Below are positions 13,375-50,111 of a DNA stretch of 64,000 bases, in pieces. The notes beneath the pieces are model-generated. The model saw only the letters and a program-made list of their open reading frames with translations. It was not told the DNA's origin and made no database searches. The stretch covers positions 138,887 through 202,886 of the forward strand of contig JAPFDX010000034.1 in assembly GCA_026168605.1 (NCBI GenBank), in the 5' to 3' direction. Origin of the DNA: Roseburia sp. (lineage in GTDB: Bacteria; Bacillota; Clostridia; Lachnospirales; Lachnospiraceae). Position numbers and translations under genes: made by a program. How positions within the stretch are numbered: the first letter of the stretch is position 1; each line of letters starts with the position of its first letter.

Positions 13375-13684
13375 GGATGCCGGGGGCAGAAAGGGCTTTT
13401 CAAAAATGGAGTTGGCGAGTGGCATAAATGGTATTCTGATTTGTGAATGTGGAGAAGCTTAGAGCTTCTTAATGTTCTGTCAGTTTCCAGCAATTCGACG
13501 GCAGGGATGCTGGCGAAAGTCCGAACTGCGCCACGGATGGCGCATAGAGGACGGTTGCGTCCGTAAACAATACCGCTGCCAGAACATTTTAGAAGCTCTT
13601 AGATTCGGAACCTGAACAAAAAGAATACCATTTATGCCACTTGCCAGACGCAATCCGTAAAAGCCCCTTTTACCGTCGGCATCC
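13375..13684 (+). repeat. Palindromic non-coding element copy A (about 310 bp) with ANGGAT-hexaloop hairpins
   Basis: Ends GGATGCCG...CGGCATCC; internal inverted arms tggcgagtggcataaatggtattct / agaataccatttatgccacttgcca (1 mismatch in 25); hairpins CGGC-AGGGAT-GCTG (13499-13512) and TGCGCC-ACGGAT-GGCGCA (13527-13544). Confidence 0.85.
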
Positions 13685-13726: not shown

Positions 13727-14578
13727 ATGCCGGAATACAAAAAAGTCGGTTATCTGACCAGCAGTTTTAAGATGTTTCATTTAAAGGACACGGAGCACAG
13801 GGAGTTCAGCTACCACTATCACGATTTTCACAAGATCCTGATCCTGTTAAGCGGCGACGTGACGTACACGATCGAGGGTCATGCCTATGATCTGCGCCCG
13901 GACGACATCGTACTCATCAGCGCCGGGGAGGTTCACAAACCCGTCATCCACTCCGACGCGCCCTACGAGCGCATCATTATCTATATTTCCCCTGATTATC
14001 TGAACGAATACCGGGAAAAGGAAAATGATCTCACACTCTGTCTGCACCGGGCGCGCAGCGAGCAGGCGCACGTTCTCCGGCTACAGTCCTCCCGAAACGG
14101 CAGGCTCGGCACAGTCATCCGGGAGCTTGACCGCTCTCTGTACGATGAGGACTACGCAAACGCGCTCCACCACCGTGTTCTCTTTCTGGAATTTATGATC
14201 CAGCTCAACCGTGCGGCGCTGCACAACCACATTCTTTTTATCGAGGACACGACCTCCAACGAAAAAATCCTCTCTGTGCTCTCCTATTTACACAAGCACC
14301 TGACCGAGGATATCAGCATCGAGGAGCTTGCCGCGAGCGTCTTTTTAAGCCGCTCCTATCTCATGCATATGTTTAAGGAGCAGACCGGATACACCCTCGG
14401 AAGCTATATTTCCACCAAGCGCCTCTTCCTTGCAAGAGAGCTGATCGGAGACGGTATGCCTGTCACGGAAGCCTGCTATGCCTGCGGTTTCCGCAATTAC
14501 TCGACCTTCCTGCGGGCATATAAAAAGAGCTTCGGCGAATCCCCGAGGGATCAGCGCCCAAGCTCTCTCAACCCTTAA
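13727..14578 (+). CDS. AraC-family transcriptional regulator (cupin + HTH)
   Basis: YHYHDFHKILILLSGDVTYTIEG cupin; C-terminal double HTH LAASVFLSRSYLMHMFKEQTGYTLGSYISTKR. Confidence 0.9.
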   Translation: MPEYKKVGYLTSSFKMFHLKDTEHREFSYHYHDFHKILILLSGDVTYTIEGHAYDLRPDDIVLISAGEVHKPVIHSDAPYERIIIYISPDYLNEYREKENDLTLCLHRARSEQAHVLRLQSSRNGRLGTVIRELDRSLYDEDYANALHHRVLFLEFMIQLNRAALHNHILFIEDTTSNEKILSVLSYLHKHLTEDISIEELAASVFLSRSYLMHMFKEQTGYTLGSYISTKRLFLARELIGDGMPVTEACYACGFRNYSTFLRAYKKSFGESPRDQRPSSLNP

Positions 14579-25170: not shown

Positions 25171-25293
25171 TTGAGTGACAAAAGGGAATTTTTAAATTTA
25201 GAAGTTCTTGGTTTCGGAATCCTGAACAAAAAGAATATCATTTGTGCATTTTCCCAATCACAATCTGAAAAACCCCTTTTGACACCCGAATCC
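25171..25293 (+). repeat. Palindromic element copy C, internally deleted (about 123 bp)
   Basis: Left end gtgacaaaaggga fused to right-arm sequence ttagaagttcttggtttcggaatcctgaacaaaaagaatatcatttgtgca...aaaaaccccttttgacaccc shared with A and B; core hairpins missing. Confidence 0.8.
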
Positions 25294-45235: not shown

Positions 45236-45814
45236 CTACTCGTCCCCGATCCCAAGCTCCGCCTCTTTTTGGCGTATCACACTTTCACGCTCTTCCAATT
45301 CTTCTTCCCATCCCGCATAGCGGTTGATCAGCTTCTGTTCATAATTGACGATCGTCGGACTTCCCGCCGTCGCAGAGATCACGAACATCGCCGCCACGCA
45401 GACAAACAAAATAGCCGCAACACCACTCATAATGCGGTAACGGTTTTTGTAATCAACATTCACATAGCGCTCCCTGACGGTTTTTCTGGTCTTTGGATTC
45501 TCATACCGCACGCGCATCTGTCTCTCCAGAAGCGTATGCCGCACCGGGATCGGCAGTATCTCAGCCTTATCCACCGATGGTGCCATCTGTAAATACTCCT
45601 GCAATTCTTTAAGATAAGAAAGTCCTGCCGCTGTCTCAAACAGACGCTCCCGCACAAGTTTATTGTAAACCTGAAGCACCTTTTCGGGCTGTTTCATATC
45701 CAGCTTTTCTTTTACGATACGGATCCCTTCCGCCTCCTTTTCCGCCTGCCTCATCTCCGCACTATTGGCAAACAGAAAGCCGTTTACGATCATTTTTTCC
45801 TTTTGTTCTTCCAT
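45236..45814 (-). CDS. Hypothetical protein with one TM helix
   Basis: 192 aa; YRIMSGVAAILFVCVAAMFVISATAG helix. Confidence 0.65.
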   Translation of the reverse strand: MEEQKEKMIVNGFLFANSAEMRQAEKEAEGIRIVKEKLDMKQPEKVLQVYNKLVRERLFETAAGLSYLKELQEYLQMAPSVDKAEILPIPVRHTLLERQMRVRYENPKTRKTVRERYVNVDYKNRYRIMSGVAAILFVCVAAMFVISATAGSPTIVNYEQKLINRYAGWEEELEERESVIRQKEAELGIGDE

Positions 45815-45861
45815 AACCCCACATCCTCTTTTTCAATTATGCCGTTTTATATGCTTTATTA

Positions 45862-46170
45862 GATCAGGGTGTCAAAAGGGAGTTTTCAAAAATGGGATTG
45901 GCAAAATGTACAAATGGTATTCTGATTTGTGCATATGGAGAAACTTAGAAATTCTTAATGTTCTGCCAATTTCCAGCAATTCGACGGCAGGGATGCCGAC
46001 GAAAGCCCGAATTGCGCCACGGATGGCGCATCGAGGGCGGTTGTGTTCCTGCACATGAACAATACCCAGAGCATTTTAGAAATTCTTAGTTTCGGAATCC
46101 TGAACAAAAGGAATATCATTTGTGCAGTTCGCCAGTTGCAATTTATAAAACCCTTTTTGACACCTTGATC
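45862..46170 (+). repeat. Palindromic non-coding element copy B (about 309 bp) with ANGGAT-hexaloop hairpins
   Basis: Ends gatcagggtgtcaaaa...ttttgacaccttgatc; hairpins CGGC-AGGGAT-GCCG (45985-45998) and TGCGCC-ACGGAT-GGCGCA (46013-46030); flanked by direct TTTATTA (45855-45861, 46171-46177). Confidence 0.88.
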
Positions 46171-46210
46171 TTTATTATAAAAAAAGCTGTGGGGAAATGC
46201 AATGGCAGGA

Positions 46211-49162
46211 TTACCGCTTCTCATCCCACTTTCTATTTGTTTCCAAAAAACGGTCATAAAAATCCTGGAGACTCTCTGTTCCGTTCCCGGCCTTCAGCAT
46301 ATGCTCCCGCATCGCCAGCATCTCCTCATGTGTAAAAGAGTATGTCTGTACCGGTGTGTCATTCTCAAGATTATCAAATGCTGCCCGCAATGCAGCCACA
46401 TACTCCGCATCCGTTTTCCAAACGGAATCATCCGCCAAACCGCCATTTTCATATGACTGCCCATAGTAGTGCTCATTGATAAAACGCGTTGTTTCCGCCG
46501 TCTCTGCCGGCATCGGCGCGGTGTCGACGATATGCACGGTGATCTGCTTTTTATAGATACTTCCGGCACTATCTACCACCGTCAGATTCTCCGTACAACT
46601 TCCACTCTTTTGAAACTGCGTGAAATCTGCTGGTGCATAATCCGGTATGGAAAAAGACGTACCGTTTTCGTGAAAACCCGGAAGAATCGGGCTGCCGTCC
46701 TCGCGGTCGGATGCAGTCGCATGGCTTAAGATCTCCTCCTGCGTGATAAAGCCACTCTGTGCCTGCTCCAGCGTATAGTAAAGATCTGCCGCCTGAATCC
46801 ACGGGCAGTCATCCCACACTGCATAGAGAGTGATCGTAGCACCATTTTGCCCCACTACCCCTGCCGCTTCGGTCAGCGCCTTCATATCAATGGTCTCACC
46901 CGCCTTCCACTGCGGTTCCAGGTCGCCTTTTTTATCTTCCAGAGACCACCCGAGGAATACAGACGGGTAAACCTTCGGTTTCTGCTCTGCTTCCGGCTGC
47001 TCCGTTGCCTGCTCCGCTCTGGATTCCTGCTGCTCTGTCTCCGCGCCATCCTCCGGCTGCTGCGTCACCGGAAGATCCATTTTCTCTACAGACGCCCCGG
47101 CTTCTGTTCCCGGCTCCTCTGTTGGTGGCATCACTTCGTCAACTTCCGGTTCTGTCTCTGTGTCCGGTGGCGTCGTTTCATCTGCTTCCGGCTGCTCCAC
47201 CGGTGGCGTCACTTCGTCAATTCCCGTTTCAGTCTCCGGCTGTTCCTCCGGCGTTGTCGCTTCGTCAGCTTCAGACTGTCCTTCCGGTTCTCCCGCTTCT
47301 GCTTCTGCTTCTTCCGGCTCTGCCGTTAAGCTAAGCGCACCGGACAGCACCTGATCCGTCACATTCACGCCGTCCTGCGTGTACTTGGCATAATAAGCTT
47401 CTCCATCCGGTAGCATGATCTGTTTGTCGTACTGCGTTGTGATATTGTCAAGATGCGTCACCTCTCCGCCATCGTTCGGATGGAATGCAACCGTATAGGC
47501 ATTGGCTTCTGCCTCTGCGCGCATGGAAACATTACCGTTTGGCATGGTAAAGGTGTAGTCCTTGTTTGCCATGTTGTAACTTCCCGTCCACCCCTTCCAG
47601 TGATAGCCCGGTTGCACTGTCGCGCCAATCGTCACCTTGCTTCCATACGGATAGTCACCGCCACCCGTCACGGATTCGATTCCGGCGCCTCCCTGCACAT
47701 CGAGCGTATATTTTGGTACTGCACTGGAAGATGCCTTCCACATCTGATCGATCCAGTACCCCGTGTTTGTGCCGTCTGCCCGAAGATAGCCATGAAAACC
47801 TGCGCTGTTTTTAAAGACTGTGCTGCCTGCTCCCTTTGGCTTACACTGCACCGTATAGCTGATCGTGCTGCCATTCATCATGGACGCAACAGAGTTACCG
47901 GAAAATGTCACCGTGTTGCCGCTTATCGCTCCCTGAATCGTGGTGCTGCCATTTACCACCGCCGTAGCACTGGTTGGCGTTAAGCCGCTGTCGATCTGTA
48001 CCGTCATATTTCCGTCATAGATTCCGGTGTCCGGTGTGGATGCAACGTTCTTAAATTCACCCTTTACCGTCACGCCGGAAGGGCTGTTCACTGTCGTTGT
48101 CTGGGTGCCTGCAAAATCAGGATAAGCGATATCTACCGCCATTCCAAGAAGAAACGAAGTCGTCCAGTTGATGTTTTGTACAGTCAGATCAATGCGGTTC
48201 GCATTGTTACCCATGTTACTGTTAATATCCGATAAGTCCATACGGATGCAGCCGTTTCCGTAATCTCTGTCATTGACCAGATTTCCGTTTCTGTACAGTC
48301 CGGGAGAATACGTCGAGTTTGACACCACCTGACCGATCAGTCTCCCGCTATTGTCATACGTGGAAATATTCTCAATCATAGGCTTGTCATGCCCTGCGTT
48401 TGACGCTCCGAAAAACACCTGCCCGGTCGCTGTTCCACTGGATTTTGACTTCAAACCGTTCCCAAGTGTCAGTGTTGAGCCGAAATCAGTTGCCATATAA
48501 AACTTTGCACCCATATCAAGCTTTACAGCCCTGACCGGGAAACTGTCGTCCTCCTCCACAACAATGAGCTGCCATGAGCCCGGGGATTCCCCGCCGCCAT
48601 AATCGCCGCCATCACCGTAATTAAAAAACGGAATGTTGCAGACTGCATAATTACCATATCCGGTATTTTTCACTATTTCAGTTACATCTGTCGCCATACA
48701 GAACAAGCTTCTCATGCCAGAATTATTACCAACCACACGCCAATCATTGATTGCGTATTCTGCACGTATAAAATGCTTGCTGCCATCCGATGCAACAAAC
48801 AAAACAGGATCTGTAGCTGCCTGCTTTGCCCTTGTCTGCCATACCAGATACGCATACTTGATCTTACTTGTACTGGTTGGTCTGTGCAACGTTGCTACCG
48901 AACTGTTTGCGTAACCCCCGCCCAGATCATTGTATATCTGTTTTCCCATCGGGTTCCCATGCGGACTGTACCTCACATAATGGTTTGTGTTTCCAGTATA
49001 GTTAAACTGATACCTGCCGACACGCGTACCGATCAGGGTCTGTATCGTCTCCTGTCCGGTAACTGCCGCGTTTACCCGCTGCGGCATTGCCGTTACAAGA
49101 CAAAGACACACCAGAATCACCGCGATCGCTCTTTCCATATTTAATTTTCTGCCATATTGCAA
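46211..49162 (-). CDS. Large secreted surface/adhesin-like protein with Listeria-Bacteroides-type repeat and acidic Pro/Glu/Thr repeats
   Basis: Signal peptide AIAVILVCLCLVTAMPQRVNA; TVAFHPNDGGEVTHLDNITTQYDKQIMLPDG; TPPVEQPEADETTPPDTETEPEVDEVMPPTEEPG. Confidence 0.85.
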   Translation of the reverse strand: MQYGRKLNMERAIAVILVCLCLVTAMPQRVNAAVTGQETIQTLIGTRVGRYQFNYTGNTNHYVRYSPHGNPMGKQIYNDLGGGYANSSVATLHRPTSTSKIKYAYLVWQTRAKQAATDPVLFVASDGSKHFIRAEYAINDWRVVGNNSGMRSLFCMATDVTEIVKNTGYGNYAVCNIPFFNYGDGGDYGGGESPGSWQLIVVEEDDSFPVRAVKLDMGAKFYMATDFGSTLTLGNGLKSKSSGTATGQVFFGASNAGHDKPMIENISTYDNSGRLIGQVVSNSTYSPGLYRNGNLVNDRDYGNGCIRMDLSDINSNMGNNANRIDLTVQNINWTTSFLLGMAVDIAYPDFAGTQTTTVNSPSGVTVKGEFKNVASTPDTGIYDGNMTVQIDSGLTPTSATAVVNGSTTIQGAISGNTVTFSGNSVASMMNGSTISYTVQCKPKGAGSTVFKNSAGFHGYLRADGTNTGYWIDQMWKASSSAVPKYTLDVQGGAGIESVTGGGDYPYGSKVTIGATVQPGYHWKGWTGSYNMANKDYTFTMPNGNVSMRAEAEANAYTVAFHPNDGGEVTHLDNITTQYDKQIMLPDGEAYYAKYTQDGVNVTDQVLSGALSLTAEPEEAEAEAGEPEGQSEADEATTPEEQPETETGIDEVTPPVEQPEADETTPPDTETEPEVDEVMPPTEEPGTEAGASVEKMDLPVTQQPEDGAETEQQESRAEQATEQPEAEQKPKVYPSVFLGWSLEDKKGDLEPQWKAGETIDMKALTEAAGVVGQNGATITLYAVWDDCPWIQAADLYYTLEQAQSGFITQEEILSHATASDREDGSPILPGFHENGTSFSIPDYAPADFTQFQKSGSCTENLTVVDSAGSIYKKQITVHIVDTAPMPAETAETTRFINEHYYGQSYENGGLADDSVWKTDAEYVAALRAAFDNLENDTPVQTYSFTHEEMLAMREHMLKAGNGTESLQDFYDRFLETNRKWDEKR

Positions 49163-49178: not shown

Positions 49179-50111
49179 TTAATGCCATTCAGACGTACCG
49201 CCTAAATCCGTGCCATCATCTGAGCCAGTGCCCGGCTGTGGTACAAAATCCTCAACGTCGTCAAACTCCGGAGACTCCCACCAGTTATCAGACGGCGCGC
49301 CACTGTTACCAGATGTATCACCACCAGCATTTCCTGCATCTGTACCGCCTGCATTGCCGGTATTTCCGCCATTGCCTGCGTCTCCTGCGTTACCGCCCTG
49401 ATCTGTGCCGCCTGCATTGCCGGTATTTCCGCTGTTATCTGTATTTCCGGTTCCTCCGACATTTCCTGCGCCGCCGTTACTGCCTGCATTCCCAGTGCTG
49501 CCATTATCAGGAGCTGCGGTGCTTCCGGTGTTACCGCTGTTACCCGCACTGTTTGTATTTCCTACATTATTTACATTTTCTACATTTCCAGTATTGCCCG
49601 CAGCCCCTGTATTTCCAGCATTTCCTCCATTATTTCCACTGACCGCACTACCGTTACTTCCTGCTCCCTTTGTCGGAGTACTTACTTTCTGATCGGACAG
49701 ATACTTGTCACTGACATATCCTTCCTCACCGTTATAATTGATCCGGTACCAGCCCGTATCCGCCTGACCGGTCACGGTTACTTTCTGTCCTGCCGTTAAA
49801 CTGCCGAGTTTTTCATGATCGGAGCCAGGACCCTTTCTGACATTTACGGTCTGCGTGGCATACTTTGTAGCAGACAGTTCTGTGACGGCAAATGCCGGAG
49901 TTTCCGTTTCTTCCGGAATCTCTGTTTCTGTCGTCTCTGTTTCCTCTGTTTCTTCCGCGATCTCTGTGACTTCCTCTGTCTCTGTCACTGCAATAACTTC
50001 CGTTCCTACGACATCCTCGGTCTTATTGCTGCCGCATCCGGTCACTGCTCCTGCAAGCACGCTCACGCTTAATCCCATGATTCCCAAAAATTTCAGTGTG
50101 TTCTTTTTCAT
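49179..50111 (-). CDS. SH3b-domain lipoprotein with long Gly-Asn-rich repeat tail
   Basis: MKKNTLKFLGIMGLSVSVLAGAVTGCGSN lipobox; QTVNVRKGPGSDHEKLGSLTAGQKVTVTG SH3b; GNTGNAGGTDQGGNAGDAGNGGNTGNAGGTDAGNAGG. Confidence 0.85.
   Translation of the reverse strand: MKKNTLKFLGIMGLSVSVLAGAVTGCGSNKTEDVVGTEVIAVTETEEVTEIAEETEETETTETEIPEETETPAFAVTELSATKYATQTVNVRKGPGSDHEKLGSLTAGQKVTVTGQADTGWYRINYNGEEGYVSDKYLSDQKVSTPTKGAGSNGSAVSGNNGGNAGNTGAAGNTGNVENVNNVGNTNSAGNSGNTGSTAAPDNGSTGNAGSNGGAGNVGGTGNTDNSGNTGNAGGTDQGGNAGDAGNGGNTGNAGGTDAGNAGGDTSGNSGAPSDNWWESPEFDDVEDFVPQPGTGSDDGTDLGGTSEWH

Follow-up and report, generated by a model that had tools for sequence, protein, structure and literature searches.

TwoAYGGAY RNAs (Rfam RF01731) were found by Weinberg et al. 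in 2010 and tabled as a probable RNA that is probably not cis-regulatory (PMC2864571); Rfam assigns the family to the class Cis-reg, and Rfam 15 improved its structure using covariation (PMC11701678). Gardner and Eldai reported in 2014 that TwoAYGGAY fits the CsrA-binding motif and proposed, as a testable hypothesis, that these are CsrA-binding sRNAs in Clostridia (PMC4333381). The literature that we searched, with most subscription journals outside it, held no demonstrated function for this family, catalogued since 2010, and no description of a mobile form or a leader form. RsmE binds hairpins with an ANGGAN hexaloop whose A and GGA are contacted and whose N is variable (PMC7652899). The sponge RNAs CsrB, CsrC and RsmX/Y/Z of Gammaproteobacteria and the hag leader of B. 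subtilis, with CsrA and FliW, are the nearest described CsrA-binding RNAs (PMC7652899). For the shape of the DNA element described here the nearest systems are bacterial MITEs such as MITEAba12 (PMC6382973), which are small, non-coding and dispersed, with terminal inverted repeats and target duplications.

The window, the whole 64,000-nucleotide stretch of a Roseburia sp. genome that was analysed, contains two Rfam matches, both to TwoAYGGAY. Copy A scores 110.7 bits, and both copies (Table 1) lie far above the gathering score of 43 bits, with B covering the full length of the model; therefore the RNA is already catalogued and is not a new kind. A weak minus-strand match to MIR821, which reached 26.7 bits where the cut-off is 249, was discarded. 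Both cores match TwoAYGGAY over the full model and carry the same two loops, but the Rfam model has 168 positions, whereas long outer arms bring the present element to about 310 bp, and its copies include a group that is mobile with 9-bp target duplications. The loops of B are of the AYGGAY type, the first, AGGGAT, having a purine at the Y of position 2 as in most copies of this genome, and both are closed by C-G. ANGGAN-type GGA hairpin loops, more than one per RNA, are shared with CsrB, CsrC and RsmX/Y/Z; that likeness concerns the way of working only and implies no sequence kinship, and the RNA here differs in having two sites, many dispersed copies, a leader or transposed setting, and FliW present. 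The hag system resembles it in having candidate CsrA sites in a 5' leader and csrA beside fliW, but one of the hag sites overlaps the Shine-Dalgarno sequence, whereas here both sites lie within a closed upstream hairpin. The element differs from MITEs in carrying a conserved structured RNA of many species, with outer ends that differ between species.

Table 1. Coordinates, within the window, of the two TwoAYGGAY copies and their features
Feature	Position	Strand	Details
Copy A, leader-type TwoAYGGAY element	13375..13684	+	RF01731 at 13447-13613
AraC-family regulator gene immediately after copy A	13727..14578	+	
Left target-site duplication of B, CTTTATTAG	45854..45862	.	9 bp; 8/9 match to right copy
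Copy B, MITE-like element with TwoAYGGAY core	45863..46169	+	307 bp; ends from terminal inverted repeats and target duplication
Left terminal inverted repeat of B, ATCAGGGTGTCAAAAGGGA	45863..45881	+	anchoring on terminal inverted repeats
RF01731 TwoAYGGAY match in B	45934..46100	+	107.5 bits
GCAA, 5' side of stem closing both hairpins of B	45976..45979	+	Rfam alignment
Hairpin 1 of B	45980..46003	+	loop AGGGAT at 45989-45994; fold and loop columns
Hairpin 2 of B	46005..46038	+	loop ACGGAT at 46019-46024; fold and loop columns
TTGT, 3' side of closing stem of B	46041..46044	+	Rfam alignment
Right terminal inverted repeat of B, CCCTTTTTGACACCTTGAT	46151..46169	+	anchoring on terminal inverted repeats
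Right target-site duplication of B, CTTTATTAT	46170..46178	.	9 bp

The stretch 45862-46170 is a long imperfect palindrome, as the first-pass annotation had described it; its limits as an element were refined to those in Table 1, with an imperfect 9-bp target duplication outside. Checking the sequence bore out that A and B have near-identical cores, and likewise the two loops and the minus-strand ORFs on either side of B (45236-45814 and 46211-49162). The two copies have in common a 188-nt stretch of 83% identity. Further along, at 49179-50111 on the minus strand, an SH3-domain protein has a long G/N-rich tail arising from DNA repeats at 49338-49631. The plus strand of 45862-46170 folds at -139.8 kcal/mol compared with -77.1 +/- 5.2 for dinucleotide shuffles (z = -12, none of 100 as good), and B reaches -141 kcal/mol on the plus strand against -114 on the minus strand. 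A third core hairpin, GGACG-GTTG-CGTCC, had been proposed. It lies outside the Rfam structure: in the Rfam alignment and the fold, the base of hairpin 2 is GGAC or GGGC paired with GUCC or GCCC, and the closing stem pairs GCAA with UUGC or UUGU. At the base of hairpin 2 the difference between A (GUCC/GGAC) and B (GCCC/GGGC) is a compensatory change.

B does not have the arrangement of a 5' leader: the gene downstream of it is encoded on the other strand, and no convincing plus-strand promoter was found at B, where the sigma-70-like score is below that of shuffles (7.5 versus 8.2). No promoter-like site is convincingly directed into the core, and a minus-strand transcript of B would hold the complement, whose loops lack GGA. 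B, with a minus-strand gene on each side, is therefore most likely a silent insertion and not an expressed regulator. A possible role as a bidirectional terminator was considered and is not backed by a terminator call at B.

The 2.73-Mb genome contains 39 TwoAYGGAY copies. Carriers made up 10 of 41 relatives, all of the same genus and with up to 49 copies each, 26 of 344 genomes sampled from the order and 33 of 342 from the class. Plasmid and phage collections gave no match; one viral contig has the terminal inverted repeat string but no TwoAYGGAY match. Searching genome contigs with a 15-base core pattern was abandoned, as it mostly returned chance matches in unrelated taxa. Aligned cores from this genome fell into two clusters, one of 27 copies including B and one of 12 including A. 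The two copies of the window had been taken for the same kind of element, which does not hold: A belongs to a promoter-proximal, leader-type group and B to a transposed one. A third copy in the window, near 25177-25287 on the plus strand, has the same ends and right arm with the RNA core deleted.

The 27 copies of B's group have ends that are alike, of the type ATTCGGGTGTCAAAAGGGG, with terminal inverted repeats and 9-bp target duplications. When ends were placed by anchoring on the inverted repeats, both were readable in 21 copies (20 of this group and copy A). The flanking 9-mers matched at 5.67 of 9 positions within a copy compared with 3.56 for left and right flanks drawn from different copies (0 of 20,000 permutations as high, p<5e-5), and no excess appeared at 2-8 or 10-12 bp in the same 21 copies. 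Two copies (L060 and L063) have perfect 9-bp repeats, that of B is imperfect, and copy A is without one (2 of 9 positions alike). The insertion target is AT-rich, about TTnCYTATARGnAA. The inverted repeats are common to the dispersed copies, and the B-type element contains no transposase ORF; a transposase bounded by such ends (ATTCGGGTGTCAAAAGG) was not found in the draft assembly of this genome or in the loci sampled from one relative, G024. In view of the inverted repeats and 9-bp duplications of the group, B is, by group-level sequence statistics, a MITE-like, non-autonomous element inserted by transposition with a 9-bp target duplication. In G024 the same ends often stand just after terminator-like T-runs. 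Its loci L290-L309 have ends ATTCGGGTGTCAAAAGGC in many near-identical copies, some only about 50 bp long; the G024 copies are a recent expansion targeting sites beside terminators.

If each copy, B included, were a stand-alone expressed sRNA that sequesters CsrA in the manner of CsrB or RsmZ, transposition would raise the dosage of the sponge. The 39 copies in one genome, the fact that mobile copies too have kept both of their CsrA-type loops, and the earlier proposal of the family as an sRNA (PMC4333381) agree with this. It is nevertheless unlikely, because promoters are not enriched at the mobile copies (score 7.81, shuffles 7.66), these copies are oriented at random to neighbouring genes (downstream gene on the same strand in 13 of 25), and B has no terminator call.

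The first-pass annotation had predicted a structured RNA read from the plus strand, and the core is indeed more stable on that strand in 24/27, 10/12 and 38/42 copies of three sets. It had staked this reading on stems and ANGGAN loops being preserved in further copies, and both were kept across the genome-wide copies. The wobble pairs that it had used as evidence for the plus strand did not serve in the outer stems, which have similar numbers of G-U and A-C cells (101:118, 58:49, 154:136); this absence of strand bias accounts for the non-uniform wobble that it had remarked on. Within the core hairpins every set had more G-U than A-C (15:9, 4:3, 10:2, 7:2), an excess that was not relied on since it is significant only in the related complete genome G016 and the copies are related. 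The two apical stems of G016 showed strong covariation: 13 of 18 pairs changed on both sides and the score was 0.419 versus 0.125 in shuffles (0/500), in a set comprising only copies with GGA at both loops, so that the constancy of GGA there is partly due to selection of the set. The loop columns of this genome were examined in an alignment of all covariance-model matches. In the mobile group the A and GGA columns had 1 change in 216, compared with 24% in the N columns and 4.8% in other core columns; in the leader group the contrast was weaker (3 changes in 96 versus 8.1%).

Copies that lie within about 1.3 kb of each other were also seen in relatives: 13 opposite-strand pairs, counted by eye, were all divergent (minus then plus) and never convergent (L213-L217, L219, L220 and L222-L225 among others). 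Two loci with close copies (L289 in G016 and L215 in G367) have ORFs between them, and these presumably resemble the C-terminal part of Rpn/PD-(D/E)XK 'recombination-promoting nuclease' proteins.

A's group looks, in its sequence context, like 5' leaders. As a group its copies follow a promoter and precede a start codon on the same strand: the next gene downstream shares the strand of the copy in 12 of 12 compared with 13 of 25 mobile copies (p=0.003), and sigma-70-like promoters score 10.25 at the 5' end versus 8.16 in shuffles (p=1.6e-4). Since the grouping and both tests were examined on the same data, these p-values are descriptive; gene calls were made heuristically. Individually, 7 of the 12 copies reached p<=0.05 for a promoter, copy A not being among them; at the leader copy L003 a further promoter-like sequence precedes the gene. 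Among the genes downstream are a DinB/UmuC-type polymerase, secA, a UvrD/PcrA helicase, greA, rsmF, an SDR, the AraC regulator, a purL-like gene, DUF5050 and DUF5721. In the sampled part of the relatives' loci, no leader copy was seen conserved at orthologous genes. In the leader group, complementarity between the two outer arms of a copy (0.674) exceeds the similarity among left arms from different copies (0.405), suggesting that the outer stem is kept by paired change; quasi-palindrome correction via template switching could also produce this complementarity.

Both TwoAYGGAY loops are ANGGAN hexaloops with GGA in the loop, the recognition motif of CsrA/RsmE, and judging by this match the two loops of the core most likely bind CsrA. 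In the order sample csrA was present in 26 of 26 carriers and 177 of 318 (56%) non-carriers (p=8e-7), and in the class sample in 28 of 33 carriers, five being without a csrA match, and 86 of 309 (28%) non-carriers (p=2e-10); genomes were taken as independent in these tests, and some genomes of the source family occur in both samples. CsrA accompanies motility in general, and inside the genus csrA fails to discriminate, being present in 9/10 carriers and 13/15 non-carriers. FliW was found in 17 of 19 carriers tested, and the two without it are also without csrA. In the present genome csrA adjoins fliW, and its product matches solved CsrA/RsmE chains and is 54% identical over 54 residues to E. 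coli CsrA. Four further csrA-like ORFs lie on contigs C47 (L252:3074-3376) and C38 (L254) and at the ends of contigs C26 and C9. The ORF on C47 is directly upstream of a flagellin gene, as, by position, is that on C38.

The core and its loops might instead be needed by a transposase or by a single-stranded DNA step, so that the palindrome would be selfish DNA alone and would not function as RNA. We consider this quite improbable: the target duplications, the wobble pairs of the outer stems without strand bias, and the apparent use of copies as insertion sites by group II introns speak for it, but in most copies the plus-strand core folds more stably than the opposite strand, the leader-type group has its promoter and strand arrangement, and the conserved columns are those that CsrA/RsmE reads, in carriers that have CsrA. 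The intron sites are in G016, where four copies with a truncated core (at 1468841, 2053357, 2184758 and 2406493; L288, L284, L285 and L287) directly adjoin near-identical group II introns with a reverse-transcriptase ORF and, in L288, an Rfam group-II-D1D4-3 match, as if the intron used the TwoAYGGAY element as its insertion site. A cis-regulatory leader sensing a signal other than CsrA, riboswitch-like or through another protein, would suit the Rfam type Cis-reg and the leader arrangement ahead of unrelated genes, but is very improbable, since the absence of a common pathway among secA, greA, UvrD/PcrA, rsmF and AraC argues against a metabolite switch and the conserved columns fit CsrA/RsmE (PMC7652899).

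At the level of sequence statistics, the results show that the RNA core is structured and has loops of the CsrA type, that B's group is mobile, that A's group has a characteristic arrangement of promoter and strand, and that the family co-occurs with CsrA. Our preferred explanation, which we regard as probable, is that B is a silent, MITE-like insertion with a CsrA-type RNA core and that the leader-type group acts through CsrA. B would have been inserted by transposition with its 9-bp target duplication, carrying the TwoAYGGAY core along. Read from the plus strand, the core would form two neighbouring hairpins whose ANGGAN loops would bind CsrA, perhaps filling both RNA sites of one CsrA dimer. 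In leader-type copies including A, between promoter and start codon, CsrA binding may act in cis on the mRNA, and pooled TwoAYGGAY RNAs may titrate CsrA beside its protein antagonist FliW. More tentatively, a transposon may have spread tens of two-site CsrA-binding RNAs through Clostridia, some of them captured as leaders, giving a CsrA regulon and titration pool alongside FliW.

The RNA family itself and the idea that it binds CsrA are prior art; new are the finding that it is mobile, the group of leader-type copies, the pattern of change in the loop columns and the co-occurrence with CsrA and FliW. The loop pattern, the CsrA co-occurrence and the dispersal by transposition turn the motif-based proposal of 2014 into a concrete, testable hypothesis. 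According to a 2020 review, whether FliW and sRNAs act jointly on CsrA is still to be determined in any species (PMC7652899). Because TwoAYGGAY carriers also have FliW, they are a place to test the joint action of FliW and CsrA-binding RNAs. If the explanation is true, the binding sites of a regulator would have been spread by a mobile element.
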